The translations under genes were made by a program, and so were the position numbers. From Chlorobiaceae bacterium (GTDB taxonomy: Bacteria > Bacteroidota > Ignavibacteria > UBA10030 > SZUA-254), in NCBI GenBank assembly GCA_013824245.1, contig PNNN01000064.1:1-59805 (forward strand): 59,805 nt of DNA, in the 5' to 3' direction. Below the pieces are notes generated by a model that was not told the origin of the DNA, searched no databases, and saw only the letters and a program-made list of their open reading frames with translations. This document shows positions 38,859 to 56,251 of this stretch, piece by piece; within the stretch, counting starts at the first letter, position 1; each line of letters opens with the position of its first letter.

Positions 38859-39665
38859 TTAGTTATATTTTTGCTGAAGGTCAAACCTGTTTAAAACAAA
38901 ACCAAGGACCTGCCGTTCATTTATACGCTGAAAGATTGCATCCACTTCTTCTTTCTTTGTTTTTCCCGAATGAACTACAACTACCAACCCGTGTAGTTGA
39001 TTTGCAAAAAGAGTAGGCACGCTGACAGAGTTGATTGCCGGCATATCTACGAGGATAAGTTCGTAATTCTGTTCAAGCGAATAAATCAAATCGCGGAATG
39101 CCGCAAGCTGATCAAGCCCAAGCATGGCACGCGATGCGATAGAGGATGATCCTTCGAGCTTAGAATTATTAGCGAACAAATTTTCATGGGGAATTAGTGT
39201 GCTGCCTGCAGTTAATACATCTAAATTTTCGATCATGGTTCGAGACACAATGATCTCGGAAGATATCAGACCTTCCGTCAAGCCGGGTGCTAACTGAACA
39301 CCAAATATTCTGTGAAGGTTTGGATTGGCTACATTAAGATCGACCAATATGGTTTTTTTCTGAGAGCCCATGGCAAACGATACCGCCATGTTGCAGCTAA
39401 TCAAAGTTTTTCCTTCACCTTGTTTGGCGCTTGTTATGCCAAGAGTTAAATTGACATTTTGATTCTCTCTAGAAAGTAAAAAATAATTGAATGAATTGTA
39501 GTATTTATACTTTATTACCGATTCATCGATGAATTTGCCGCGCTCTGGATTCATGACGATGGCTTTTATGAGGCGAATAATCTTTTCATTCTTCTCTTGT
39601 TTGTCGGCGCCGCCAATGTTTTGATTTGCGTCGGTTTGAGTATGTTTTATTTCTGGATCTATCAT
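38859..39665 (-). CDS. Tyrosine autokinase (BY-kinase, CpsD/CapB/Wzc-type cytoplasmic domain)
   Basis: This 268-residue separate cytoplasmic domain pairs with the membrane protein before it. Walker A is SAKQGEGKT (residues 79-87), Walker A' is ILVDLNVANP (about 105) and Walker B is LILVDMPAI (about 206). The C-terminus holds a single Tyr (QQKYN) rather than the usual tyrosine cluster, and the Walker A' Asp is followed by an Asn-rich stretch. Without a Tyr cluster, autophosphorylation may be weak or absent, and it may act as a pseudo-kinase regulator of export. It is separated from the co-polymerase by 58 bp. Confidence 0.88.
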   Translation of the reverse strand: MIDPEIKHTQTDANQNIGGADKQEKNEKIIRLIKAIVMNPERGKFIDESVIKYKYYNSFNYFLLSRENQNVNLTLGITSAKQGEGKTLISCNMAVSFAMGSQKKTILVDLNVANPNLHRIFGVQLAPGLTEGLISSEIIVSRTMIENLDVLTAGSTLIPHENLFANNSKLEGSSSIASRAMLGLDQLAAFRDLIYSLEQNYELILVDMPAINSVSVPTLFANQLHGLVVVVHSGKTKKEEVDAIFQRINERQVLGFVLNRFDLQQKYN

Positions 39666-39723: not shown

Positions 39724-41073
39724 TTACTTGCGCTCTTCTTGAATGCTTTCACCTATGAAAGCTATGATCGGTTTTTGGTATACTTCGATATCCTTTGGCG
39801 CGCGTATAGTTGTATCGAATAATTCTGCAATAATCACGGCAAGGAATCCAAAGAAGATACTGATACCCAAACCACCGAATACTATCATAGGTCGATTCGG
39901 TTTCGATGGTGTTAACGGTACAATGGGTGGATCAATGATAACAAATTGATTGGCACTCTTCTGTCCTAAATCGCGTGATGTACGGGCTTGTTCTAATTTA
40001 ACCTTCATCTCATCGTATAATTTTTTGTACATGGTATAATCAGATTCTTTGTCGCCGCTAAGCTGTTCGCTGATTGATGATTCTCTAATACCATCAACAA
40101 TCTGGGTTCTCCGAGTTTCAAGATCTGTTCTCGAAGAATTTATTTTTTTTATTTCAGAATCTAAAGAAGTTTTCATCCTATCAAGAAGTTCCGGTAATTG
40201 AGATTCAATGTTCTGCACTTCTGGGTATTGGGGTGTGTAACGTCGAAGAAAATCGTCGTATTTCGACAGTAGTGAACGAAGTTCCACTGCAAAAGGTATA
40301 TCGAGACGCTGTAGTTCATACAAAGAGTTCCGGCTATCTTCATCTCTTATTTTTAACGAAGAAGTTCGAAGAGTATTCAACGCCTGATGGTTGGTTCTCA
40401 ATTTTATGTCAAGATCTGCGATTTGTTTTTCTATGGTTTCCATTTGCATGTATAGGGTACGACTTTCGGTTGGCAAAGTGCTAATTCTCCGACCGATTAT
40501 CGACATGACTTGCCGTTGGCTGGCTTCGAATTTATCTTTAGTCTCAGCCAGCTTTTTTTCAAAAAATTCTACCGATTGCTCGCCACGCTGGTTTTCAACG
40601 CTCATTAAAGTTTCAATAAAAAGTTTCGAAAGAAGTTCAACGCCGCGTTGTGCTCTGTTTGGGTCATCGTCTGTGAAAGTGATTCGAAACGAATCAGACC
40701 CACGTTTTTCGGTTTCAATTACTGTAGCTAATGCACTCACTAGCTTTTGTCTCTTGGCTTCAGTCTGAGCTTTCTCTCCATACCCAAGACTATCTATCAA
40801 TTTGAGAAGCATCGTTCTGCTATATAATATTTCATTGAATGTTCTAAGCCGATCCTCTGATGCCATAGCTCTGGAAATTTCGTAACCAAGTAAGAGGTTG
40901 GGGATCTCATCGCGTTGAACGAGTATTGTTGATGAAGATTCAAACTTTTGCGGTAGAAGCAAAGCCCCAACCACACTGATACTCGTTATGATAATTAATG
41001 GAATGAAGAAGAATTTTCTTCTTCTTCGAAAGAGGGAAAATATTTCGTGCAATGTAAATTGAGCAGAGCGCAA
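39724..41073 (-). CDS. Wzz/GumC-type polysaccharide co-polymerase
   Basis: The 449-residue protein has an N-terminal helix (about 21-40), a long periplasmic part with heptad-like coiled coils (about 160-345), and a C-terminal helix (about 395-415) preceded by PIVPLTPSKPNRPMI, the proline-rich motif of the family. It controls chain length and, with the adjacent kinase, polymer export. The start is TTG: an AAAGGA ribosome-binding site lies 7 bases before it and no in-frame ATG suits. It is the first gene of the minus-strand run, 52 bp downstream of the -24/-12 element. Confidence 0.9.
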   Translation of the reverse strand: MRSAQFTLHEIFSLFRRRRKFFFIPLIIITSISVVGALLLPQKFESSSTILVQRDEIPNLLLGYEISRAMASEDRLRTFNEILYSRTMLLKLIDSLGYGEKAQTEAKRQKLVSALATVIETEKRGSDSFRITFTDDDPNRAQRGVELLSKLFIETLMSVENQRGEQSVEFFEKKLAETKDKFEASQRQVMSIIGRRISTLPTESRTLYMQMETIEKQIADLDIKLRTNHQALNTLRTSSLKIRDEDSRNSLYELQRLDIPFAVELRSLLSKYDDFLRRYTPQYPEVQNIESQLPELLDRMKTSLDSEIKKINSSRTDLETRRTQIVDGIRESSISEQLSGDKESDYTMYKKLYDEMKVKLEQARTSRDLGQKSANQFVIIDPPIVPLTPSKPNRPMIVFGGLGISIFFGFLAVIIAELFDTTIRAPKDIEVYQKPIIAFIGESIQEERK

Positions 41074-41124
41074 TTTGATTTCCTTTAAATGATGATAATA
41101 ATATTAGGTAGTACGTTTATTATG

Positions 41125-41139
41125 GCAACTAACATGCCA
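41125..41139 (-). promoter_or_regulatory. Candidate sigma-54 (-24/-12) promoter for the minus-strand EPS run
   Basis: Read on the minus strand it is TGGCAT-N5-TTGC, matching the -24 GG and -12 GC elements at the right spacing, about 52 bp before the co-polymerase start. The only mismatch to TGGCAC is the sixth base. Confidence 0.65.
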
Positions 41140-41249: not shown

Positions 41250-41311
41250 TTTACACACTATCTTGAAATATGCTTATCGCGGCAAATAAATAAGTTATCA
41301 TTGTGTGTAAA
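41250..41311. repeat. Perfect 9-bp inverted repeat, candidate activator-binding site
   Basis: TTTACACAC (41250-41258) and GTGTGTAAA (41303-41311) are perfect inverted copies with centres 53 bp apart, about five helical turns. They lie between the two -24/-12 elements, as an upstream site for a sigma-54 activator would. Confidence 0.5.
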
Positions 41312-41481: not shown

Positions 41482-41496
41482 TGGCATAGGATTTGT
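41482..41496 (+). promoter_or_regulatory. Candidate sigma-54 (-24/-12) promoter for the plus-strand EPS run
   Basis: TGGCAT-N5-TTGT has the right spacing and an intact -24 GG, but the -12 GC reads GT. It lies 57 bp before the Wza-like gene. It is weaker than its divergent twin. Confidence 0.5.
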
Positions 41497-41553
41497 CAGG
41501 TACAACTGGTAGCTACCATCTCCTCCAGTTAACTGATTACTGAGACATCTCAA

Positions 41554-42297
41554 ATGGAGGAAAGAATTTCAACTAAACTAAAAAGATTTATGATACAACG
41601 AATAATAATATTTAGCATATTAATTTTTTTTCTGATAATAATTGGATGTTCATCTTCAGAAGAAATCGCGAAGGATAATTTAACACAAATTATCCGATCG
41701 GGCAGCCGTTCAATGCAAATTGAAGCGCAATCAGGCGGTTACGTTGTCAGACAGTCCGATCAGGTACAAATTGCTGTTTGGGGTTATCCTGAATTTAATT
41801 GTCAGGGTCCCGTTAAAGAGAATGGAGCTGTAACTGTTCCTCTATTAGGGGAAGTTGTTGCAGCAGGGTTGACAAAGGAGCAATTTACCGATCAACTGAA
41901 ACAAAAACTTTCTGTTTATATCCAAGGCGAGATTCAGTTGTCTGCAACAATCACAAGCGCAATTCCTCAAAAAATTGCCGTGCTTGGGGCTGTATCGAAT
42001 CAAAATAATTACCCGATAACGACGGATGTGACATTGATTGAAGTTCTCTCAGCGGCTGGCGGTACAACAATCGATTCTGATTTGCGTCATATCCGAATAA
42101 TTCGGAATGGTATGAGCGATCAACCGATCGATGTTGATCTGACAGCATATATTGAAAACGGCAATATTGAAGCAATCCCGATGGTTCGCCCTGGAGATAC
42201 AGTGTTTGTCCCTAAAAAATCAAACGTCATAAGAGAGTTGTCTGATTTTATGCGTGATGCGATTTTCATTTTCGGATTCTTCCGAATATTTAATTAA
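41554..42297 (+). CDS. Wza-type polysaccharide export lipoprotein
   Basis: The 247-residue protein carries a lipoprotein signal (FSILIFFLIIIGC, lipobox ending in Cys). The Poly_export domain follows (residues about 65-135: SDQVQIAVWGYPEFN, VPLLGEVVAAGLT) and then one SLBB domain (about 140-225: KIAVLGAVSNQNNYPI, LIEVLSAAGG). It should form the outer-membrane export channel working with the co-polymerase across the divergent region. I use the ATG at 41554; an internal ATG at 41590 would place the signal peptide at the very start and is a fair alternative. The hydrophobic C-terminus (FIFGFFRIF) is shorter than in enterobacterial Wza. Confidence 0.88.
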   Translation: MEERISTKLKRFMIQRIIIFSILIFFLIIIGCSSSEEIAKDNLTQIIRSGSRSMQIEAQSGGYVVRQSDQVQIAVWGYPEFNCQGPVKENGAVTVPLLGEVVAAGLTKEQFTDQLKQKLSVYIQGEIQLSATITSAIPQKIAVLGAVSNQNNYPITTDVTLIEVLSAAGGTTIDSDLRHIRIIRNGMSDQPIDVDLTAYIENGNIEAIPMVRPGDTVFVPKKSNVIRELSDFMRDAIFIFGFFRIFN

Positions 42298-42309
42298 TTG
42301 AGTGCTGCA

Positions 42310-43254
42310 ATGAATAGATCAATAAAAATTTATGGATTTATAATTATCCAATTTACAATTGGTTTTTTATATAATCATTATGCAGATGCTCAATCGTCAT
42401 ATTTCAATTCGAGGCATGCACTAATTGGAGCTCGAGCAGCATCTTTAGCTGATGCACTCGTTGCCGAAGCCTACGATGCGAATACGATGTATTCGAATCC
42501 GGCCGCACTTGTGCATTTAACTAAATCGTCATTAGTTCTGAATCATAATCAGGAAAGATATTACGATGGCATGACTGAAAATGTTGGACTACCGGTTCGT
42601 ACCGGCTTTTCCGAAGCAATGGTTTTTGGATTAAGCGTCAGTCATATCGGATATCTGAAAAAAGTTTCAACTACCAACACCCGTCCTTTCCAAATCGGTT
42701 ATGATTTTGCTTATGCAAGAGAGATAATGCCAACTTTCAGCGTCGGCGCCAGGATCGGTGTTGATTATGGTCAGGCAGGAAGTACTAATTTATTGGGTGC
42801 GTCTGCCTCTCTTGGAATATGCTATTCTCCATCGCCGGAAATAACTTATGGTGCTGCCTTCAATGGTATTGGAACAGGTATTCATTATAATATCAGCGGT
42901 GGAACAACTGCTATCCGATTGGATAATTTGCCGCATAGTTTGCAAGCGGGTGTTGCAATGCGGTATCCGGCAATTCCAAACCAGAATATCGTTACCGTGG
43001 CGATTTCGAACGAGAAAATTTTCGGACAAACCGGCATCCAGTATACCGGTGGTGTTGAGATATACCCGATACAGTTTCTTGCAATTCGTGGTGGCTACAC
43101 AGTGAAGAATCTGGAAAAGTCTGGAAGAATCGGTTTCGGTGTGCGTTCGGGTTATGGAAATTTTGATATTTCTATTTCACCGAGCCGTTCAACAGATCAA
43201 TCTATATTTCTTACAGGTTCTTTTGTTCTTTGGAAAACAGAAACTCGCTATTAA
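42310..43254 (+). CDS. PorV/PorQ-like outer-membrane beta-barrel protein
   Basis: The product has 314 residues from the ATG at 42310; a TTG four codons earlier directly follows the Wza stop. There is a signal peptide (about 1-28, ending ADAQ). The start of the mature protein, GARAASLADALVAEAYDANTMYSNPAALV, is the block typical of the PorV/PorQ and UPF0164 group, followed by alternating beta strands to the end. PorV-like barrels deliver T9SS cargo to the attachment complex, but they also occur in polysaccharide loci. Lying between Wza and a regulator gene, it may be an outer-membrane partner of export rather than the secretion subunit. Its stop overlaps the next ATG (TAATG). Confidence 0.82.
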   Translation: MNRSIKIYGFIIIQFTIGFLYNHYADAQSSYFNSRHALIGARAASLADALVAEAYDANTMYSNPAALVHLTKSSLVLNHNQERYYDGMTENVGLPVRTGFSEAMVFGLSVSHIGYLKKVSTTNTRPFQIGYDFAYAREIMPTFSVGARIGVDYGQAGSTNLLGASASLGICYSPSPEITYGAAFNGIGTGIHYNISGGTTAIRLDNLPHSLQAGVAMRYPAIPNQNIVTVAISNEKIFGQTGIQYTGGVEIYPIQFLAIRGGYTVKNLEKSGRIGFGVRSGYGNFDISISPSRSTDQSIFLTGSFVLWKTETRY

Positions 43255-44069
43255 TGAAAGAATTCATTATGATTAATTCGCTTAATCAAAATGTCGTATC
43301 TACCGACAGTCCATCGGTAGAAAGATTGTTGAAAAAGATTGAACCAATTATTTTAAGTGGTCTTGGTTTGATTATCGTCGGAGAACAGGGGACAGAAAGA
43401 GAATACATTGCTTCGCGAATAAACGAACTTAGTGGCAGGGAAAACCATGTTTTCTCGAAATATGATTGCAATTATAATTATCAATATTTATCAGAAAAAA
43501 TTATTTTCGGTTCTGAAGATCTGATATTAACAGGAGTTGAGATCAATCGTGGTATGCTCGAGAAAATTTCTAAAGGTTCAATATATTTTGAAAATATTGA
43601 ATCTATGTCACCTCCATTGATATCGCGTCTAATTCGAGAAGTTGAAAATGGACATTTTCGTCGCGTGGGTGGTGTTGAAGATATTCCCTTGAACGTCCGA
43701 TTTCTTGCCGGAATGGACTCACATATCGTTAATAGCTTGGATACGAAAACAAGCGAATTAATTCATCGACTGTTTCCTATCATCGTCAATTTTCCTCCGC
43801 TCAGAGAAAGAAAAGAAGATATTTGGTATTATTTAATGAAAATTATCGAGAAATATTCATTTACGCGTGTGATGAACGACACAATTATTTCCGATAAATT
43901 TGCACAATTTGTATTGAATTATTCCTGGCCAGGGAATTTTCAGGAATTAAATAATGTTATCAAAAGTACGATTATCAATGCCGGATGGAAAACGATCCGA
44001 GTGGAACATTTGCCTAATTATTTATTTCAACAATATTTTGGTAAGGGGCAAGGTTTTGCTATTAATTAG
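43254..44069 (+). CDS. Degenerate sigma-54 activator-like AAA+ protein
   Basis: The protein has about 271 residues from the ATG that overlaps the preceding stop; another ATG at 43269 is possible. It aligns with the AAA+ domain of NtrC-type activators: FPPLRERKEDIWYYL and YSWPGNFQELNNVI are clear. Key parts are broken: Walker A GESGTGKE reads GEQGTERE (Lys replaced by Arg), the GAFTGA loop reads DLILTGV, and Walker B reads IYFENI. There is no receiver and no C-terminal helix-turn-helix. It therefore cannot be a normal activator. A role as a decoy or inhibitor of the real activator at 53024, or as a vestige, fits; both are inferences. Confidence 0.82.
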   Translation: MKEFIMINSLNQNVVSTDSPSVERLLKKIEPIILSGLGLIIVGEQGTEREYIASRINELSGRENHVFSKYDCNYNYQYLSEKIIFGSEDLILTGVEINRGMLEKISKGSIYFENIESMSPPLISRLIREVENGHFRRVGGVEDIPLNVRFLAGMDSHIVNSLDTKTSELIHRLFPIIVNFPPLRERKEDIWYYLMKIIEKYSFTRVMNDTIISDKFAQFVLNYSWPGNFQELNNVIKSTIINAGWKTIRVEHLPNYLFQQYFGKGQGFAIN

Positions 44070-44179: not shown

Positions 44180-46117
44180 ATGTTATTGCCTTTATTGTTA
44201 ATTTTTATTATTCCTGTGATTTTATCGATAGTCATCACTCCATATGTTATCGGGTTTGCTGAGCATATTGGTGCGATGGATATGCCAAACGATCGGAAGG
44301 TACATAAGTATCCTATACCTCGGTTGGGCGGAATAGCAATATACATCAGTTTTTTTGCCGCACTAATTTTTTCGTTATATCTCCAACCATCGATCCATCC
44401 GTTTGGGACCATCACGCCCAAAACAGGAATAATGCTTGTCGTCTCTTTAACTATAGTATTAATCTTGGGGATATGGGACGACCTAAAACAATTAAGTCCG
44501 GGTAAAAAATTTATTGGTCAGGTATTTGCCGCGTCGATAGTTTATTTTGCCGGGTTCCGTATCTCTGCAATTACATCTCCGATGGATTTGGCATTATTAG
44601 ACTTGGGTATATTCGATTTTCCGGCAACAGTTCTTTGGGTGGTTGGAATTACAAATGCATTCAATCTGATAGACGGCTTAGACGGGCTTGCCTCCGGAGT
44701 GGCTTTTATTGTAGCCATTACAATTTTTCTGATATCATTCATGAAGAACGATATCGGTTCTGCGATGTTGGCTTTGTTGCTTGCAGGCGCTGTTCTCGGA
44801 TTTTTACGTTATAACTTCAATCGTGCGCGAATATTTCTTGGAGACTCTGGAAGTCTTTTTATAGGTTTTACGCTCGCTATTTTATCGATGACAAGTTCAA
44901 CAAAAGGATCAACTGCATTTTCGATCATTGTTCCTGTACTGACATTGGGATTGCCGATTATGGATACGATGCTTGCTATGACCAGACGTTTCCTTCGTTC
45001 CATGTTTCCAGATCAAAAAGAATACAAGCCATTTATAAGGAAAATGCTATCGATATTCGATCCAGATAAAGGCCACATTCATCATCAATTGATAAATCTC
45101 GGATTGTCGCACAGGAAAGTTGTGCTTCTTCTCTATGTTGTCTCGGTAACATTTGGAGTTGGAGCATTTGCGGTAACAGTTACTAATACATTAAGCGCTA
45201 TCCCGATATTAATCGCAATTGGCGTTGCTACTGTTATCGGTGTGAGTCAGTTGAAGTATAAAGAAATGGCTGTCTTGCGTAACGGATATTTACTTCCGAT
45301 ATATAAAATGCAATTGATGAATAATACTTTTTTCCTCGGTTTTCTTGATATTGCATTTATTATTATATCTTTCGTTTCTGCAACAGCGTTGGCTTCTATA
45401 GGTCAGCATGGCTCAGCGTATGGTCAGAATATCTTCAAAACAATTACGCTCGTTTCCGGGATACAGTTGGTAATTTTTTATATCAGCGGATTGTATAAAG
45501 GAACATTCCATCAATGGGGGATAGGCGATATATTGAAAATTTTAAAAGTCGTTTCGACGGCAATTATTGTAACTTGGGGTATTTTTGCGCTCTTTCCCCA
45601 AATTGGTTTTAATTTTAACATAACAATTTTTATTATCGATTTTTACCTTTTGATAACGCTTGTTATGGGGACAAGAATTTCATATCAAATACTTAATTAT
45701 TTCTCAAAGCGCGGTGAACGGGGAAAGAAAAACGTTTTAATTTATGGCGCCGATATAAAAGGCGTTCTAATGCTTCAGGAAATGGTGGATGATACAAGTC
45801 TGCAGATTTCACCTGTCGGATTTTTAGATGATGATCCGAAACTTGAAGGTAAAAGATTAAACGGTTATCCGATCTTCGGAGGTCACCGGAAATTAGAGCG
45901 GTTAATTAATACAAAAGGCATATCAGAGGTAATTCTGAGTAATGATGCGATCAAGCCGATTGTTTTAAAAAAATTGATCGATATTGCAAGAAACCGAGGC
46001 ATCATTGTTCGGAAATTTAAAGTTCGCTTCGAAGAGGTTTCAAGAGCCGATCATAAGTCTCAAGTTCTCGAAAGCCAGACTGCGTTTTACGAGCAGATAA
46101 AGAATCAATCTGTTTAA
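44180..46117 (+). CDS. WecA/TagO-type phosphosugar transferase fused to a FlaA1/CapD-like N-terminal half
   Basis: The protein has 645 residues. Part one (about 1-350) is a polyprenyl-phosphate N-acetylhexosamine-1-phosphate transferase, with DD at 100-101, NAFNLIDGLDG at 159-169, FLGDSGS at 219-225 and HIHH at 299-302; it starts polysaccharide synthesis. Part two (about 380-645) has four membrane helices and a Rossmann domain (NVLIYGADIKG near 535, PVGFLDDDPKLEGKRLNGYP), matching the N-terminal half of FlaA1/PglF-type or PssY-type proteins but without their catalytic dehydratase. The fusion couples initiation to a possible nucleotide-sugar-sensing domain. No frameshift is visible at the joint. 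Confidence 0.88.
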   Translation: MLLPLLLIFIIPVILSIVITPYVIGFAEHIGAMDMPNDRKVHKYPIPRLGGIAIYISFFAALIFSLYLQPSIHPFGTITPKTGIMLVVSLTIVLILGIWDDLKQLSPGKKFIGQVFAASIVYFAGFRISAITSPMDLALLDLGIFDFPATVLWVVGITNAFNLIDGLDGLASGVAFIVAITIFLISFMKNDIGSAMLALLLAGAVLGFLRYNFNRARIFLGDSGSLFIGFTLAILSMTSSTKGSTAFSIIVPVLTLGLPIMDTMLAMTRRFLRSMFPDQKEYKPFIRKMLSIFDPDKGHIHHQLINLGLSHRKVVLLLYVVSVTFGVGAFAVTVTNTLSAIPILIAIGVATVIGVSQLKYKEMAVLRNGYLLPIYKMQLMNNTFFLGFLDIAFIIISFVSATALASIGQHGSAYGQNIFKTITLVSGIQLVIFYISGLYKGTFHQWGIGDILKILKVVSTAIIVTWGIFALFPQIGFNFNITIFIIDFYLLITLVMGTRISYQILNYFSKRGERGKKNVLIYGADIKGVLMLQEMVDDTSLQISPVGFLDDDPKLEGKRLNGYPIFGGHRKLERLINTKGISEVILSNDAIKPIVLKKLIDIARNRGIIVRKFKVRFEEVSRADHKSQVLESQTAFYEQIKNQSV

Positions 46118-46549: not shown

Positions 46550-49500
46550 ATGAATGAAATGTTAAAAATAATGATTAAGGTTGGTAAGATTCAGATGAAA
46601 CATGTTTCTATGATGATTTTAAGCATTGTGTTGTTTTTATCAACATTTGCGTTCGGAAGTACGAATTCTGATAAAAATTCAACTGATATGCGAAATAACT
46701 CCGATCCGGGCATTTGGGTAACCGGATATATTGCATCATGGACATTGCATATGGGATCTGGAACGGATGGAAATTATGGCAATATGCCATATCAGGCAGT
46801 TGATCTTGATGCTATGACACACTTGATAATGTTTGCAGCGGCTATACAAGCTGACGGTAGTTTGAAATATAACAATATAGTAACATCACGCCGCAAGCCG
46901 TTTAATGATTATGTTCATTCAAAAGGTAAACCGATTATATTGTCTGTGGGCGGTGCCGGCAATACCGAATTCTCAACAGCGATAAGTGCAACATATCGAA
47001 CGAACCTCACTCATAATTTAATGGATGCCATTCGCACATATGAGTATGATGGGATCGATATAGACATCGAACCGGTAAATGCCTCAGACACAGCGAATAT
47101 ATCTTTGTTCATTAAAGAATTGTACGACTCTCTTCAACTCCATCATTCATATCATGATGTTTCAAAGAAGCCGTTTCTAACATGTGCTATCTACAATTAT
47201 GCAAATTTGTGGGCAAGCTTAAGTCAATATTTTGATCAGATTAATTTGATGAGTTACGATTATTTTGGAACTTGGTTCGGGAAAAGTTGGCATAATAATG
47301 CGCCATCAGCTCCATCAACTGATGTTGATATATATGGGGTTGTAATGACAACAGTCCAATCGAAAATGCAAAGATTTCTTGATTCTGGAATTCCCAAAAA
47401 TAAATTCGGTGTTGGAATCGATTTTAACGGTTGGGTATGGAAAGGCGGTTTACTTGCAGACGGATCCGGGAACGGAGTAACTGCACCGCGTCAAAAATGG
47501 TCAACTGCTCCAACAATTGTTGGCGGTAAGGAAACCCAATATTATGTGTTACGAAAAAAGTATATCGATACAGCAACCGTAAGCTATCACTATGACAATG
47601 TTTGTAAAGTTCCATACATCGGTATCGACAGCGTTGGAAATACATCCGATATTTATGTTACATATCAGGATACGTCAACGATTCGCGAGATTTTTAATCT
47701 CACAAAACAAAATGGAATCGGTGGTTTGATTCTTTGGGAAGTAGGCGGTGGTTATCTTGGAACAACTGATTTCCCCACTACTTTATATCCCAATTTAATA
47801 CGCGATCCATTGCTGCGAGCTGTTAAAGAATCTCTATTGGGCGGATTACCAATTATCACTGAACCTCCTCAAGCTCCATTATTATTAGCACCATCAAATA
47901 ATACGTACAACGTATCTATTAATCCTTTAATGCAATGGAATGTTGCTGCAGGTGCGACGAACTATCGTTTGCAGATTTCAGATGATGCTTCATTCACAAA
48001 TCTGATATCGGATGATTCAACTCTCTTTATAACATCGAAACAAGTTTCAAGTTTGAGCTATTTATCTACATATTTTTGGAGAGTTAATTCCCGTAATACG
48101 GTAGGATCAAGTCAGTGGTCTGAGGTTTGGTCGTTCGTTACCGACTCTGAAAAAACAATTATACCACCACCCCCTGTAGATCCAGTTGACGAATTGGTGT
48201 ATAATGATTCACTGAATTCACCATGGAATAATGCTTCTTGGAGTTCAACAATAACATTTAAAAGCGTGGAAAATAAATATCAGGGCTTATACTCAATTAA
48301 ATCGGTTCAGAACGCATGGGGAGCTTTAAGATTTATAAGCGGTACTTGGGAATCTCCAAAGGCAATGAAAACTTCATCCGATCAGCGCTTACAGTTTAAT
48401 TTCTATAATACTACATCGGGACTCGCGATTAAAATTTATTTTGCTAACCTGACTGGTGAAAGCTTCCCGCAATTCGTAGTCAAAACATTGCCGGTTAATC
48501 AGTGGGTGAACATAGAATTTCCTGCAGACTCCATGAATCCGGGTGGTCTGGATGTTCATTATATCGTTATTCAAAATATCACATCAAATGTTTCTACTTA
48601 TTTCGTTGATGACATCTCGGTTGCAACTTCGGGAAGTCAATCGTTATCTTCGGTGCGCCTGCTTGCTCCAGAAAACTATTCAACTTTGGTAACGAATTCA
48701 ATCGTTGTGCAATGGGATTCAGTCAGCGGGGCTTCACTTTACCATTTACAACTTTCGAAAGACAGTACTTTCTCATCAACCGTATTTGAAGATTCTCTAT
48801 GTCCAATTCCATCAAGAGAGATAATCGGACTCGATTGGAATGCGAAATATTATTGGAGAGTGCGCGCTTCAAACCAACTAGTTGCTGGAGAATTTTCCGG
48901 TGTATGGAGTTTCACAACACCGGCATCAAGCGTAAAATTAGTGCTGTCTAAATCAAATATAGATTTTGGAAAAGTTTTAATAGGTACAACCAAAGTTGAT
49001 TCGATTAGATTAATTAACGATGGTACTGACACGCTCAACATTATGAGTTCTCAATCTTCTTCCACGTTCATGGTAAATCCTTCGGTTCTTCAGATAGTTC
49101 CGGGGGCGTCCAATACTATATTAGTAACATTTATTTCAACTAAAAAAGGAACATATGAAGAAAATATTCTTATCGAATACGGTGTCCCCAAGATGTATGA
49201 TACAATTAAAGTTAGTGGACAATCAGTGGCTCCACCGAGAAACGTAAGAAATCCTACGCGCTTAACATTTAAAACCGTTGTGCCCGTTTCACCGGTTATT
49301 GAGAGCTTTTATATTTATAATGACGGTGATCTTGATTTAATTATTGATAGTATGTATTCAACATCAAGTTTAATATCAATAGCACCAGCATCAATGACTG
49401 TTACCCCGAGCGATAGCCAGAAAGTTACAGTCACTACGATTGCTGCTGACCAAATGGAAAGCACAGCGTTGATAATATTCAATGATAATAGCGTGAAACC

Positions 49501-49861
49501 AATCGATACTATGCAGGTAATTTTTGAAACAGCAACCGACATTAAAACAGAATATTTCCCGACAGAGTTTTCGCTGAATCAGAATTATCCCAATCCGTTT
49601 AACCCGTCAACAACCATCAGTTATTCACTGCCTAACGAGTGCATAGTTAAGCTGACTCTCTATGATATATTAGGTCAGACAGTACAAACTCTGGTGAACG
49701 AGGTTCAACAAGCAGGTGTTCATAATGTCATTTGGAATGCCAGTGATGCGATTACAAACTCTATTGCATCCGATATATATTTCTATAGAATTGAAGCGAT
49801 AGGAATTAGCAGCCCAGGTAATGCTTTTACATTATCACGTAAAATGACTTTAATAAAGTGA
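46550..49861 (+). CDS. Secreted GH18 glycosidase with T9SS sorting domain, copy 1
   Basis: The protein has 1103 residues; an ATG at codon 16 would give a standard signal peptide (ILSIVLFLSTFAFG). The GH18 barrel (about 55-435) carries the chitinase motif YDGIDIDIEP (catalytic Glu174), preceded by the SVGGAG strand and followed by QINLMSYD. Downstream are a fibronectin-III-like module (about 445-530), a beta-sandwich carbohydrate-binding-like domain (about 545-690), a second fibronectin-like module, a HYDIN-type or choice-of-anchor segment and a T9SS tail (FSLNQNYPNPFNPS). It should hydrolyse chitin or another N-acetylglucosaminyl polymer outside the cell. It is followed by a terminator. Confidence 0.88.
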   Translation: MNEMLKIMIKVGKIQMKHVSMMILSIVLFLSTFAFGSTNSDKNSTDMRNNSDPGIWVTGYIASWTLHMGSGTDGNYGNMPYQAVDLDAMTHLIMFAAAIQADGSLKYNNIVTSRRKPFNDYVHSKGKPIILSVGGAGNTEFSTAISATYRTNLTHNLMDAIRTYEYDGIDIDIEPVNASDTANISLFIKELYDSLQLHHSYHDVSKKPFLTCAIYNYANLWASLSQYFDQINLMSYDYFGTWFGKSWHNNAPSAPSTDVDIYGVVMTTVQSKMQRFLDSGIPKNKFGVGIDFNGWVWKGGLLADGSGNGVTAPRQKWSTAPTIVGGKETQYYVLRKKYIDTATVSYHYDNVCKVPYIGIDSVGNTSDIYVTYQDTSTIREIFNLTKQNGIGGLILWEVGGGYLGTTDFPTTLYPNLIRDPLLRAVKESLLGGLPIITEPPQAPLLLAPSNNTYNVSINPLMQWNVAAGATNYRLQISDDASFTNLISDDSTLFITSKQVSSLSYLSTYFWRVNSRNTVGSSQWSEVWSFVTDSEKTIIPPPPVDPVDELVYNDSLNSPWNNASWSSTITFKSVENKYQGLYSIKSVQNAWGALRFISGTWESPKAMKTSSDQRLQFNFYNTTSGLAIKIYFANLTGESFPQFVVKTLPVNQWVNIEFPADSMNPGGLDVHYIVIQNITSNVSTYFVDDISVATSGSQSLSSVRLLAPENYSTLVTNSIVVQWDSVSGASLYHLQLSKDSTFSSTVFEDSLCPIPSREIIGLDWNAKYYWRVRASNQLVAGEFSGVWSFTTPASSVKLVLSKSNIDFGKVLIGTTKVDSIRLINDGTDTLNIMSSQSSSTFMVNPSVLQIVPGASNTILVTFISTKKGTYEENILIEYGVPKMYDTIKVSGQSVAPPRNVRNPTRLTFKTVVPVSPVIESFYIYNDGDLDLIIDSMYSTSSLISIAPASMTVTPSDSQKVTVTTIAADQMESTALIIFNDNSVKPIDTMQVIFETATDIKTEYFPTEFSLNQNYPNPFNPSTTISYSLPNECIVKLTLYDILGQTVQTLVNEVQQAGVHNVIWNASDAITNSIASDIYFYRIEAIGISSPGNAFTLSRKMTLIK

Positions 49862-49933: not shown

Positions 49934-50149
49934 ACGGACTTTCGTAACTAAAAAGAATATTCATTCCCCAAAATTGTTCCGAGGTTGAAACAAATTAGCA
50001 TTAATTTTTGTTTAATGTATGTTATTAGTTGTAAATCAACAGTAATTTGATTAGTTTTATTAAGTTTCCTTTCTCGTCTACGGATATTTTAGATAAAAAT
50101 GAAAAATGAAAATCATAAAACAAATAATATTTTTAATGAGGACAAAAGA

Positions 50150-52975
50150 ATGAAATATATTTCTTCCATTCTCCTCTTTCTTCTCGGTTTTATAACGCAC
50201 GGATACCCATCTGATAACGGTAATCAGAATCGATCATCGGTTGTTCGTTCATCGCAACAAACACTTTCATCGATCTGGGTGACCGCGTATTTACCGTCGT
50301 GGGAGTTGAACATGGGCTCCGGAACGACAGCAAATTATGGAAACCTTCCGGTAACGAATATTGACTGGTCTGCAATATCACATATAATAATGTTTGCATG
50401 TGGTCCTACATCAACCGGCACCTTAAGCTATGGGAATTTGCTTCCATCACGGCGAAAACCATTCAACGATATTGCCCACTCCAACGGTACGCCGGTTTTA
50501 CTCGCTCTTGGGGGTGCCGGGAATGAAGTTTGGGGAGAAGCTTGTAGCGCTGCCAATATTGACAATTTTTTGAAAAACGTTCTAACCGAATTGGATATCA
50601 GCCAATATGATGGTATTGATTTAGATGTAGAACCTTTCCGAAATACCGGAACGATAAACGACACCACAAGAGTGGGACCGTTCATACGTCGGCTTTATGA
50701 TTCGTTACAAGTCCGAAGACAGTTCGCAGATCCATCTAAGAAACCATTATTAACAACTGCAATTCTTCCCAGTTGGGCGGGTGAATTTTGGGCTAAACAT
50801 GAAAACATATTAGACCAAATCAATATCATGACTTATGATATGGCTCAATCGATGGGTTGGGGAACAGATAGAACATGGCATAACAATGCAGTGTTTTCAC
50901 CGCCACCTCCAACCGGAACAAACCTTTATTATACATCGATTCAATCACGCTGGTTAGATCAATTATACAAAAGAGGCGGAAAGAATAAAGGTAAATACGG
51001 AGTAGGTATTGATTTTAACGGATCGCTTTATAAGGGAGGAGTTACTATAGACAATCCGAATGAGGGAGTATCACAGCCAATGCAAAGATGGCAAACAGCT
51101 CCAAAGTTTACATGGGATTACGATTTTGATCTTATGTTCAAGACATATCTTGATACTGCAACGCGGACAGTTAGAAGGTACGATTCAGTTCATCAAGCTG
51201 CTTATCTAAAAATTGTAGTTTCTCCGCAATTAGCAAGTGACCCATCACAACCCTGGTTAGATGAAGCATATTTATCATATACTGATTCTACGCAGATAAA
51301 AAGAATTGTACGATATGTTCGAGATTCAAGTGCTGGTGGCATAATAATATGGAATATCGGGGAAGGGTATCTGCCCAGCCAATATCTTGAACGTGATAGA
51401 ATGTTGCAATCTGTAAAAAATGCGGTTTGGATGATTGCGCCTCCACCGCCCAAAATTCAGCCGCGCATTAGGGGAGAAATATTTTTCGATAGAGAACCCG
51501 ACGGAATAAAAAGCACTCTCGACCCTTCGATGTCGGGCTGGAAAGTTACTATCTTTGGTCCTGAAGGAGAACAGATTGCTTTTACCGATTCATCAGGAAA
51601 GTATGAATTTGATTCATTGCAAACCGGAGAGTATGTTGTTACTGTTGAGGTAAAAAATTTGTGGAGACCAACGTTTCCACTTCCCGCTGGTCAGATTACT
51701 TATACCACTCAACTACTCGATGATACATCTGTCTCGGTCTGCGATTTCGGTTTGTATGCTTCGAATGTAATCGGTACTCAATACGGGGCGGGGTGGAGCG
51801 CCGTCTCTTTGCCGCTAAATGTTCCCGATCCACGCACCGGTGTTATATTTCCTCGTGCATCAAGTTCTGCTTTTTCGTATTTGAATTCCTATCTTTTGGA
51901 AGATTCATTGCAGGTTGGAAAGGGGTATCTGATAAAATTTTATTCAAATCATACTCTCTGGACAGCCGGATATGCTGTTGATAGTATTGTGGTTCCATTG
52001 AACGAAGGATGGAATATTATTGGCTCTATATCCACATCTGTTCCGCTGAGTTATATGAAAACCTCTCCATCTGGAATTTTATCCTCACCATTTTATTCAT
52101 TTGATAATGCAGGATATATGTTCTCGGATTCTATCATAGCCGGTAAGGGGTATTGGGTAAAGACTTCGGAAAAAGGTTCTATTCAAGTATCGACTGATGG
52201 AAATCAAGCTTTCAGAAAAATTGACAACACAAAATCGTTAAAGGAATCTTCGCATTCGATAACATTCAACTCGGCGTCAGGGGAATCGAGAACCTTATAT
52301 TTTGAGGGCATGAATATTGAAAATTTGTCTGAATATGAATCGTATTACGAACTTCCGCCATCATTGAATGATGAGAATTTTTTCGATGCACGATTCATTT
52401 CTCTCTCCGATCCTCTCTTTAATGGAGCATTGATCGGTTTTTTTAGGGATGGGGCTACCGGAATAGAAAAGATACCTATTCAGATCACAGCGGTTCGGTA
52501 TCCCCTCAGCTTAAAATATAAGATCGATAACGAAAATGAATATCGGTATGAATTAGAAGCACCCGATAAATTAATTTACACACTCAATGGCAATGCTGAG
52601 ATTTGTATTCGTGAATCTAAGGCGCAATCTTCCGGGTCTTCTGAATTAATATGGTTAATCCGCAAACCGATCACCTCGGTGACCCAGCAACCGGTGAAAT
52701 TTTCATTGAATCAAAATTATCCAAATCCATTTAATAATGGAACGGTCATATCATTTGATATCCCTTCTGATGGGTTTGTCCGGTTGGAAGTATATAACAT
52801 CTTGGGAGAAAGGGTTGCCGTTCTTTTAAATGGTGAGATGAACGCGGGCAATCATTCTCAGCAATTCGAAGATTTTCAAAATCTTTCGAGCGGATTATAT
52901 CTTTATAAACTCTCTTTTACAAACAAGTCTCATTCTGTTTCCAATGAGACTAAACGGATGCTTCTTCTGAAATAA
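50150..52975 (+). CDS. Secreted GH18 glycosidase with T9SS sorting domain, copy 2
   Basis: I start at the internal ATG at 50150: a GAGGA ribosome-binding site lies about 8 bases before it and it gives a clean signal peptide (MKYISSILLFLLGFITHG). The protein has 941 residues. The GH18 barrel has YDGIDLDVEPF with the catalytic Glu, the LALGGAG strand and QINIMTYD. After the barrel come a SdrD-B-like module (RGEIFFDREPDG, about 455-535), a further beta region, and a T9SS tail (FSLNQNYPNPFNNG). Its N-terminal 380 residues resemble copy 1 (both have SGTxxNYGN and SRRKPFND), so the pair arose by duplication, but the accessory domains differ. Confidence 0.88.
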   Translation: MKYISSILLFLLGFITHGYPSDNGNQNRSSVVRSSQQTLSSIWVTAYLPSWELNMGSGTTANYGNLPVTNIDWSAISHIIMFACGPTSTGTLSYGNLLPSRRKPFNDIAHSNGTPVLLALGGAGNEVWGEACSAANIDNFLKNVLTELDISQYDGIDLDVEPFRNTGTINDTTRVGPFIRRLYDSLQVRRQFADPSKKPLLTTAILPSWAGEFWAKHENILDQINIMTYDMAQSMGWGTDRTWHNNAVFSPPPPTGTNLYYTSIQSRWLDQLYKRGGKNKGKYGVGIDFNGSLYKGGVTIDNPNEGVSQPMQRWQTAPKFTWDYDFDLMFKTYLDTATRTVRRYDSVHQAAYLKIVVSPQLASDPSQPWLDEAYLSYTDSTQIKRIVRYVRDSSAGGIIIWNIGEGYLPSQYLERDRMLQSVKNAVWMIAPPPPKIQPRIRGEIFFDREPDGIKSTLDPSMSGWKVTIFGPEGEQIAFTDSSGKYEFDSLQTGEYVVTVEVKNLWRPTFPLPAGQITYTTQLLDDTSVSVCDFGLYASNVIGTQYGAGWSAVSLPLNVPDPRTGVIFPRASSSAFSYLNSYLLEDSLQVGKGYLIKFYSNHTLWTAGYAVDSIVVPLNEGWNIIGSISTSVPLSYMKTSPSGILSSPFYSFDNAGYMFSDSIIAGKGYWVKTSEKGSIQVSTDGNQAFRKIDNTKSLKESSHSITFNSASGESRTLYFEGMNIENLSEYESYYELPPSLNDENFFDARFISLSDPLFNGALIGFFRDGATGIEKIPIQITAVRYPLSLKYKIDNENEYRYELEAPDKLIYTLNGNAEICIRESKAQSSGSSELIWLIRKPITSVTQQPVKFSLNQNYPNPFNNGTVISFDIPSDGFVRLEVYNILGERVAVLLNGEMNAGNHSQQFEDFQNLSSGLYLYKLSFTNKSHSVSNETKRMLLLK

Positions 52976-53023: not shown

Positions 53024-54373
53024 TTATTCCAACTGATAACTTGACAATTTGTTGTGCAAAGTTTTTCGGCTAACACCAAGAATTTTTGCTGCTTTAGCTT
53101 TATTATTCCCAGTAGAAGCGAGTGTTTGAAGAAACAGAATCCGTTCTGCTTCGTGCGCGGTGCTTCCGATAGGTATGCTGATGTTTGTTTGAAATGCCGG
53201 TTGTTGATGCAATCTTTGCGGCAGATAATGAGTGTTGATGATTTGGTGATTACAGATTACAAGCGCCCGCTCAACTATATTCCGGAGTTCACGGATATTG
53301 CCGGGCCAATGGTAAAGCATTAACAACTCAAGAGCGTCTTCCGAAAAACGTTGAATTGGCTTCTCGTACTTAACTGCAAATATCTTGAGGAAATAGTCTA
53401 CGAGCAGTGGAATATCTTCTTTTCGCTCTCTGAGAGGAGGAATATAAATTTCGATAACACTTAAACGGTAATATAAATCTTCGCGGAGTTCTTTCGCTTT
53501 TATTGCCTCGGTGATATTCTTGTTTGTTGCGGCAACCATTCTTACATCAACGTTGATTTCTTCTTTGCCGCCCAGCCGTCGGAATTTTTGGGTTTCAATC
53601 GCACGCAGCAATTTTGCCTGCGTTTCATGACTCATTTCCGCAATCTCGTCAAAAAGCAGTGTCCCTCCGTTTGCCAACTCAAAATAACCCGCCTTTTTTT
53701 GCAACGCACCGGTAAAGGCACCTTTCTCGTGCCCGAATAATTCATTTTCAATCACATCTTTTGGAAGGGTTGCACAATTAAGAGCATGGAATTGTTTTTG
53801 TGCTCGCTTGCTGTGCCGGTGAATGAGGTGAGCTACGACCTCTTTTCCTGTGCCGCTTTCCCCGCTGATTAGTACTGTTGTCTCCGATTTTGCGACGAGC
53901 CGTATTGCCGAGCGAATTTCTGAGATTGCCGCACTCTTCCCGATGAATGTAATATTGTTTTCAGATTGAATATTTTCCGGTTCGGTTGGACTTTGTGAGA
54001 TAAGGAACGATTCTTGATCTGAGGTCAGTTTTACTATTGATTCAATTAACCGGGGGTCTGTCAATCCTCCGATTATATAATCGGTCGCTCCCGCTTTCAT
54101 TAATCTTACTGCGTCCGATATTGAGCCGTTTTGGGCGCTGACTAATAATTTGACATTTAATTTTTGTGTTTTTATAAATTCAGAGATCGATAAAGCCGGT
54201 GCGAAATTTTCAATGTATCGCATTATGCAGATTGAGTAGCTGCGAGAATTGAGTTGAGATACCGCTTCGTTGTATGATAAAGCTGAATGAACGAATATAT
54301 CTGCGGAGTTTAATTTAGCTTGCAGTTCGGCATCTGAATCATTTTCAAGTGTTATCAATAAAATTGTTTCCAT
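53024..54373 (-). CDS. NtrC-family sigma-54 activator with degenerate receiver
   Basis: The protein has 449 residues. The AAA+ domain is intact: Walker A GESGTGKE (171-178), GAFTGA (218-223), Walker B LLFDEIAEM and the PPLRERKEDI block. A Fis-type helix-turn-helix ends the protein (KAAKILGVSRKTLHNKL). The N-terminal receiver (1-118) has lost its key residues: the acidic pocket reads ITLENDSD, the phospho-acceptor strand reads CIMRYIEN without Asp, and IIGGLTD replaces the conserved Lys-Pro. It must therefore be controlled by something other than Asp phosphorylation, perhaps ligand or protein contact. It is the best candidate in the window to drive the -24/-12 elements of the polysaccharide locus, though no target is proven. 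Confidence 0.92.
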   Translation of the reverse strand: METILLITLENDSDAELQAKLNSADIFVHSALSYNEAVSQLNSRSYSICIMRYIENFAPALSISEFIKTQKLNVKLLVSAQNGSISDAVRLMKAGATDYIIGGLTDPRLIESIVKLTSDQESFLISQSPTEPENIQSENNITFIGKSAAISEIRSAIRLVAKSETTVLISGESGTGKEVVAHLIHRHSKRAQKQFHALNCATLPKDVIENELFGHEKGAFTGALQKKAGYFELANGGTLLFDEIAEMSHETQAKLLRAIETQKFRRLGGKEEINVDVRMVAATNKNITEAIKAKELREDLYYRLSVIEIYIPPLRERKEDIPLLVDYFLKIFAVKYEKPIQRFSEDALELLMLYHWPGNIRELRNIVERALVICNHQIINTHYLPQRLHQQPAFQTNISIPIGSTAHEAERILFLQTLASTGNNKAKAAKILGVSRKTLHNKLSSYQLE

Positions 54374-54594: not shown

Positions 54595-55851
54595 TCAGCC
54601 GAGAGCCCGATAAAATTCGGATATAGTTGTTACCCCGGCTTTCACTTTGTTGATTCCATCTTGAAAAGCGCTTTCAAATCCGGAGGCGCGGGCTGCGTCT
54701 TTAATCTTCATAATTGACGCATGTTGATATATAAGATCGCGCATTTGATCGTTAAGCACAAGAACTTCCTGAATGGCGGTTCGTCCGTAATACCCGGAGT
54801 TGTCGCATTTTTCGCATCCCTTGCCGTGATAGAATTTAGCTTCGCCTGCAAGCATGCTGACGAATGAAGATTCGTCTGCTTTAGTCGGTTGATATTCTTC
54901 TTTGCATGAGGTGCATATTTTACGAACGAGTTGCTGATATACGATGCCGATAAGTGTTGATGCCAGCCAGTATGGCGGAACCCCAATGCTTATTAACCGG
55001 AAGATTGCGCCGATTGCGCTATCCGATAATATAGTGCTTAGAACGAGATTGCCGGTGAGCGCCGCCTCTGCCGCCACTACACCGGTTTCTGCTTCACGAA
55101 TTTCACCGAGCATGATAATGTTAGGATTCTGCCGGAGGATAGCGCGAAGAGCATCGACGTACGTAAATGATTTATCGGATGAGGCGCTTACCTGAGAAGC
55201 GAAGTCAAGTTTATACTCAACAGGATTTTCTACCGTGAAAATATTTTTCTCCATACCTTGAATATCGTTTACGGCGGCATAGGTTGTAGTTGTTTTCCCC
55301 GAACCGGATGGTCCGGTAACAATGAATAAACCGTTCGGACGATGGAGCAAATTGCGAACCTTGATAAGATTTTCAGGTGTAAATCCGAGTTCATCCAAAC
55401 TTGTAACGCGCGCGTTCTTCTCAAGTATCCGCAGGGCGATTCGTTCTCCGAACATGACCGGTATTGTGCTGATCCGTATATCAAATTGGTGAAGACCGAC
55501 ATTCAGAGAAAATCGGCCGTCTTGAGGTTTTTTCTTTTCGAATGCGTTTAATGCGCCTTTTGTTTTAAGAACGTTTGCAAGGTTTTCGGAAATCTCACGA
55601 GGCAAAGAAACTAATTTTTTCAGAACACCCTCGGAACCATAGCGAATTCTAAGCTCTGCGTCTGTTGGTTCAAAATGAATATCAGTCGCTTCACTTTTTA
55701 CCGCGCGGAGGAGAATTTCATCAACCATCACTTCGGCTGTGGGAACCTTGCCGGTCCGAAAAAGATCCCGAATTTTGTCTTTAGCAAATGAACTTATATC
55801 GAATTGTTCTAAGTTTACTTTGCTTGGAATGTTTTTGAAATCATCAATCAT
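54595..55851 (-). CDS. Orphan GspE/PilB-type ATPase
   Basis: The protein has 418 residues. It has the N2 domain (SEATDIHFEP, about 53-62), Walker A GPSGSGKT (180-187), the Asp box FTVENPVEY, Walker B NIIMLGEIR (244-252) and the zinc-binding tetracysteine CTSC (313-316) and CEKC (346-349). The His box, normally STLHTNDA, reads STILSDSA, so its conserved His is absent. The usual long N1 domain is short, and no pilin, secretin or platform gene is nearby. It lies 10 bp after a stand-alone receiver gene, so a signalling-controlled assembly motor is plausible, but the loss of the His box makes weak activity or a regulatory role possible. Confidence 0.9.
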   Translation of the reverse strand: MIDDFKNIPSKVNLEQFDISSFAKDKIRDLFRTGKVPTAEVMVDEILLRAVKSEATDIHFEPTDAELRIRYGSEGVLKKLVSLPREISENLANVLKTKGALNAFEKKKPQDGRFSLNVGLHQFDIRISTIPVMFGERIALRILEKNARVTSLDELGFTPENLIKVRNLLHRPNGLFIVTGPSGSGKTTTTYAAVNDIQGMEKNIFTVENPVEYKLDFASQVSASSDKSFTYVDALRAILRQNPNIIMLGEIREAETGVVAAEAALTGNLVLSTILSDSAIGAIFRLISIGVPPYWLASTLIGIVYQQLVRKICTSCKEEYQPTKADESSFVSMLAGEAKFYHGKGCEKCDNSGYYGRTAIQEVLVLNDQMRDLIYQHASIMKIKDAARASGFESAFQDGINKVKAGVTTISEFYRALG

Positions 55852-55861
55852 GTTAGCCCGA

Positions 55862-56251
55862 TCAATTATCCTGGAGAACTCGTTCTACTGTAGATAATAT
55901 ATCTTCAATTTTATACGGCTTGCCAATAAAATCTTTCGCTCCAAATTCTTTTGCTTCCATTGCATGTTTAAGGTCTGCATATCCGGTGAGCATTATAGCT
56001 TTAATATTGGGGGCGTGCTCTTGTAAATATTTTAAAACCTGTATGCCGTTCACGTTAGGCATCTGGATATCCAGAAGAACGAGGTTGTAACCCCCGAATT
56101 TAAGAGCATTAATCGCTTCTTCGCCGTCGGAAGCTTCTGAAACATCGTAACCGGCTCCGATAAGAACATGGCTTAATAGTGTTCGCAGATCGGGTTCATC
56201 ATCAACTATTAAAAGGTGTTGTTTTTCTTTCACTTGTATTTGCTCCTGCAT
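55862..56251 (-). CDS. Stand-alone response-regulator receiver domain
   Basis: The protein has 129 residues. The acidic pocket is DDE at 17-19, phospho-acceptor Asp61 in LLDIQMP, switch Thr89 and Lys111 in GKPY; all are intact. It directly precedes the GspE/PilB-like ATPase (10 bp), suggesting that it signals to it. The end (GAKDFIGKPYK) is very like the receiver at 8981, pointing to a shared ancestor. Confidence 0.93.
   Translation of the reverse strand: MQEQIQVKEKQHLLIVDDEPDLRTLLSHVLIGAGYDVSEASDGEEAINALKFGGYNLVLLDIQMPNVNGIQVLKYLQEHAPNIKAIMLTGYADLKHAMEAKEFGAKDFIGKPYKIEDILSTVERVLQDN

Follow-up and report, generated by a model that had tools for sequence, protein, structure and literature searches.

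The polysaccharide (EPS) operon in the window, by which we mean the whole stretch of 59,805 nucleotides that was analysed, encodes a protein, here called dEBP, that goes back to the sigma-54 activators, has lost the motifs with which these contact sigma-54 and hydrolyse ATP, and is under purifying selection. The reading to which we give about an even chance is that dEBP is an ATPase-dead modulator, which joins or competes for the ring of the complete activator EPSact and most likely damps it. The papers and databases searched, whose coverage was partial, contained no description of a conserved family of activator-like proteins that stand alone and have neither GAFTGA nor Walker B. The features concerned are collected in Table 1.

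Table 1. Features of the polysaccharide locus and of dEBP (window coordinates).
Feature	Coordinates	Strand	Basis
BY-kinase-like ATPase, divergent operon	38859..39665	-	
Wzz-type chain-length/co-polymerase protein, divergent operon	39724..41073	-	
Sigma-54-type -24/-12 site TGGCATGTTAGTTGCC preceding wzz; highest in the window by the scoring used	41124..41139	-	
Inverted repeat TTACACAC...GTGTGTAA, halfway from one divergent sigma-54-type site to the other	41251..41310	.	lead only
Sigma-54-type -24/-12 site TGGCATAGGATTTGTC before wza; weak -12	41482..41497	+	
Wza-type polysaccharide export protein, first gene of the operon	41554..42297	+	domain search
PorV/PorQ-family outer-membrane barrel; stop overlaps dEBP start	42298..43254	+	domain search, sequence
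dEBP, degenerate stand-alone AAA+ sigma-54-activator-like protein, 271 aa	43254..44069	+	ORF, Pfam, motif alignment, model
Walker A remnant GEQGTERE (normal GESGTGKE)	43380..43403	+	motif alignment
L1 region FGSEDLILTGVE, replaces the GAFTGA loop, one residue shorter; beta-hairpin in prediction	43506..43541	+	alignment, model
Walker B remnant IYFENI (normal LLFDEI)	43581..43598	+	motif alignment
Lid/sensor II block WPGNFQEL (normal WPGNIREL)	43926..43949	+	motif alignment
WecA-type glycosyl-phosphate transferase fused to CoA_binding_3 domain	44180..46117	+	domain search
EPSact, complete sigma-54 activator: GAFTGA, Fis-type HTH, degenerate receiver	53024..54373	-	Pfam, motifs

The ATG start codon of dEBP and the TAA stop codon of the PorV-type gene share a base (TAATG), which bears out the original prediction of an in-frame, coupled gene within the polysaccharide operon. 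Pfam assigns residues 17-173 to Sigma54_activat (PF00158, 2.1e-22) and also detects AAA_lid_14 (PF25601, 1.4e-14); no receiver or HTH family is matched by Pfam. With the intact activator encoded at 53024-54373 (-) as motif reference, the Walker A of dEBP has Arg in place of Lys and Glu in place of the Gly just before it, GAFTGAL is replaced by the one residue shorter LILTGV, the FDEI of Walker B reads FENI, the glutamate switch has changed from NC to DC (Asn to Asp), and the REL of sensor II has become QEL; the PPLRERKED and WPGN blocks are retained. Among the attributes of the bEBP class, dEBP has the AAA+ Sigma54_activat domain and lid (by Pfam and fold) and lacks GAFTGA, intact Walker A, Walker B and switch, and the Fis-type HTH. 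To judge by these motifs, dEBP cannot grip sigma-54, the GAFTGA loop being gone, and normal ATP hydrolysis appears ruled out with Walker B and the glutamate switch gone. Failing these defining features, it should not bear the name sigma-54 activator, and more generally a Sigma54_activat match alone does not justify annotation as an activator. The earlier view of a disabled protein of sigma-54 activator origin agrees with the Pfam and fold matches, the altered Walker A, GAFTGA and Walker B, and the missing HTH. The part of it that concerned the Walker A Lys holds for this protein and does not extend to the family, since this residue is lost in only two of the 15 members, both of this genus, and several relatives have a normal Walker A.

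The AlphaFold2 model of dEBP is a confident AAA+ fold (pLDDT 88.3). In the PDB it is matched best by the ATPase domains of NtrC1, NtrC4, FlrC, LuxO, PspF and FleQ, a predicted likeness to the sigma-54 activator fold that goes far beyond chance. The L1 segment is predicted as a tight beta-hairpin (strands 86-91 and 94-99); in the control model of the intact activator, built on almost identical alignment rows, L1 is predicted with strand fragments of one or two residues only. The AAA+ domains of PspF and NtrC1, which are among the best PDB matches in sequence and structure, have the same fold as dEBP, but these proteins are active ATPases with GAFTGA and a DNA-binding domain; PspF is naturally without a receiver (PMC3162934).

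Counting the protein of this window, 15 members were identified; in the genomes of relatives they score as a distinct set above the ordinary activators, and together they are distributed over five families (f1, f2, f4, f5 and f6) within a single order of Ignavibacteria. As far as their contigs reach (that of G013 starts inside the PorV-type gene), all are located directly 3' of the Wza and PorV/PorQ-type barrel genes, and the co-conserved copies in other EPS loci that were to be sought according to the original prediction are thus present. The WecA-type transferase comes next after dEBP in most members and is missing there in G190, G229 and G277. All 15 have kept the remaining AAA+ core, whose core residues are invariant, and in all 15 GAFTGA is absent, the Walker B D-E pair is broken and the switch Asn is replaced by Asp or Glu. 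A relative whose gene in this slot has both Walker A and GAFTGA complete, named beforehand as the sign of a merely local pseudogene, is therefore not among them. Other positions are less uniform: the Gly before the Walker A Lys is lost in six members, those of f2 are without the putative arginine finger, and several have a changed sensor II Arg, so that both faces of the ring may be altered. A Fis-type HTH is kept in two members (G217 and G013), the other 13, including the dEBP described here, having no DNA-binding domain. Conserved residues specific to the family are DC, N-x-PPLRER (in f1 and f2) and HLPxY (in most members). Intermediates between normal and disarmed proteins, with the DNA-binding domain kept and a normal Walker A, exist in relatives.

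A search anchored on the barrel gene, and therefore independent of the dEBP motifs, found no complete activator in the dEBP slot. It did find sister loci with the arrangement Wza-PorV-WecA and no dEBP, within the order and also elsewhere in the class, in other families; such loci are the majority of those comparable (in G005 the contig ends at the slot, which is unreadable). Outside the order, this class-wide search found the EPS locus only without dEBP. Contig matches beyond Ignavibacteria were rejected as dEBPs, since their scores are those of ordinary activators and a receiver lies immediately upstream of many. The 11 other matches in the own genome are each at most 31% identical to dEBP, and a scan of genome contigs with the single protein found nothing.

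The dN/dS (NG86) of dEBP in four independent genome pairs is 0.159, 0.167, 0.114 and 0.152, values that are rough in three of the four pairs, where dS is about 0.9-1.1. In this genus dN/dS exceeds that of the neighbour genes, indicating faster evolution, yet it is clearly purifying. This faster evolution and the degenerate motifs speak for a decaying duplicate caught in passing, which we nevertheless find hardly credible in view of the open frame in 15 genomes of five families, the dN/dS of 0.11-0.17 and the invariant core residues; synteny likewise leads to rejection of a local pseudogene. In a maximum-likelihood tree that contains long branches, the 15 dEBPs form one side of a 100/100 branch with 41 activators on the other, and a single origin of the dEBPs appears likely; the tree of the barrel proteins requires at least two gains or losses of the dEBP gene. 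As G217 and G013 still carry an HTH, the ancestral protein was probably an activator that had this domain but no receiver. Duplication of the cognate activator is unsupported as a source of dEBP, which in sequence comparison is no closer to this activator than to several others.

Several observations point to control of the locus by sigma-54. RpoN is encoded in the genome, and both divergent operons are preceded by sigma-54-type sites, identified as consensus matches; the -12 element on the wza side has GT instead of GC in this window and reads TTTGCC in a sister genome. In relatives such sites recur, with distances of about 42-74 nt to wzz and 54-162 nt to wza, the mean best site score in the wzz-wza regions of relatives being 15.1 versus 11.9 in mononucleotide shuffles (for G353 the 92 bases taken were too few for a judgement). 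We consider that the polysaccharide locus is probably sigma-54-driven in both divergent operons. The sites occur with and without dEBP, and no correlation with its presence was found. No literature tying the EPS of Ignavibacteria to sigma-54 was found in the part of the literature covered. The inverted repeat TTACACAC/GTGTGTAA, to which similar arms recur in related intergenic regions, is a possible candidate for the activator-binding site. No strict palindromic activator site was found elsewhere in the window, and a loose search, with 21 matches versus 10 expected and none in the wzz-wza region, was uninformative.

EPSact orthologues (at least 51% identity) are present in 24 of the 25 genomes with the locus, the exception being G229, and in none of the 11 without it, where the best match reaches at most 43% identity. 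Owing to this co-occurrence, EPSact is the best candidate for the activator of the operon. It is also a candidate partner of dEBP. Since other genomes have the locus and the activator without dEBP, the latter is dispensable to the circuit. The receiver of EPSact is degenerate (Pfam 18.3 bits versus a cut-off of 30.2), and in G008, G190, G353 and G277 the similarity of the orthologues begins only at about residue 131-142, which makes it probable that EPSact is not controlled by phosphorylation. By eye, an Arg is located at the expected phospho-Asp position. EPSact is adjoined by a PilB/GspE-like ATPase and a stand-alone receiver (54595-56251, -), likewise recognized by eye.

In the mechanism that we favour, dEBP would be the product of an operon that is probably under sigma-54 control in its own right, and would enter, or compete for, the hexameric EPSact ring in the manner of FleT and FleQ. 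Greater expression of the operon would bring more dead subunits into the ring, and these would damp EPSact, resulting in negative feedback on polysaccharide synthesis. We infer the interaction between the two proteins, the mixed rings and the negative sign. An action on the activator ring is the simplest one for a dead ring protein produced from the probable target operon of that activator, and damping is the likeliest outcome because dEBP is predicted neither to grip sigma-54 nor to hydrolyse ATP normally. The poisoning of hexamers of the 53024 activator, put forward in the original prediction, is plausible. The wider proposal, that pseudo-ATPase, sigma-54-blind subunits produced from the activator's own target operon set the polysaccharide gain throughout the lineage via ring poisoning, as a product feedback, is more tentative, and we would sooner expect it to fail than to hold.

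The closest parallel is FleT of Rhodobacter/Cereibacter sphaeroides, which is without receiver and DNA-binding domain, whose expression needs FleQ and RpoN2, and which forms hetero-oligomers with FleQ (PMC11999139, PMC7277832, PMC3162934). dEBP shares its architecture, an activator-type AAA+ domain without receiver or DNA-binding domain. The FleT operon depends on the partner activator and sigma-54; for the dEBP operon, the recurrent -24/-12 sites and the co-occurrence of EPSact would fit such a dependence. In contrast, FleT is flagellar and activates together with FleQ, whereas dEBP belongs to an EPS operon and no longer possesses GAFTGA, Walker B or the switch Asn; FleT is likened to it by description, and the descent claimed is that of the shared domain only. 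By analogy, dEBP probably works like FleT. HrpR/HrpS and VnfA1/VnfA3 are ATPase-competent, DNA-binding activators. These paralogous activators form mixed complexes (PMC9542535). Sigma-54 activators are ring ATPases, and the effects of dead or altered subunits have been studied in engineered PspF rings; when wild-type and glutamate-switch-mutant subunits alternate in such rings, protein remodelling is favoured over DNA remodelling (PMC4132715). If the proposed mechanism is true, the dEBP family provides a natural case, in which subunits graded from nearly intact to disarmed occur beside a defined operon and a candidate activator. The results also suggest sigma-54 control of surface-polysaccharide loci in Ignavibacteria.

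Other roles were weighed against damping of the EPSact ring. As a positive or specificity partner of the FleT kind, dEBP could form mixed rings that switch between promoters, for example the wza and wzz sides, or stabilise ring assembly. FleQ alone and FleQ in complex with FleT differ in the class of promoter they recognise (PMC11999139), part of the function persists in PspF rings that contain switch-mutant subunits (PMC4132715), and the two divergent sigma-54-type promoters of the locus differ in quality; to lose GAFTGA and Walker B altogether is, however, more than a helper subunit needs, and the same two promoters are found in loci without dEBP, so that we hold this role to be unlikely. 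A cytoplasmic AAA+ scaffold or nucleotide sensor, repurposed to act post-translationally on the EPS machinery (the WecA-type transferase, the BY-kinase) with no role in transcription, would fit the constant location of dEBP among structural EPS genes, the loss of sigma-54-contact and ATPase motifs from a fold that was kept, and the residues specific to the family. It too has, in our estimation, a small chance of being correct, as WecA is not directly behind dEBP in three members, most loci of the same kind are without dEBP and no domain was added. The related suggestion of a structural protein, made in the original prediction, found no support for the same reasons of domain content and missing WecA neighbour.

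VpsR of Vibrio cholerae retains a DNA-binding and a receiver-like domain, both of which are missing from dEBP. It is an activator-like EPS regulator whose GAFTGA carries a deletion (PMC3162934), and this, as well as the Fis-type HTH of G217 and G013, would be consistent with dEBP belonging, like VpsR/TyrR, to the DNA-binding regulators of sigma-70 type and having lost GAFTGA. dEBP has the defective GAFTGA of this class but not its HTH, and with 13 of the 15 members, this one included, devoid of a DNA-binding domain, we judge such a role very improbable.

Some further features of the locus and of the window were recorded. Two related large proteins (46550-49861 and 50099-52975, both +) are encoded between WecA and the activator and are kept in several relatives; by eye, both have a GH18-type secreted look and a C-terminal tail resembling those of type IX secretion. 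In G030 (L040, 5542-7659, +) the Wzz-type protein and the BY-kinase constitute one ORF, where its near relative G020 has two. The window also encodes a repetitive protein of 3611 residues with many similar repeats (10035-20870, -).
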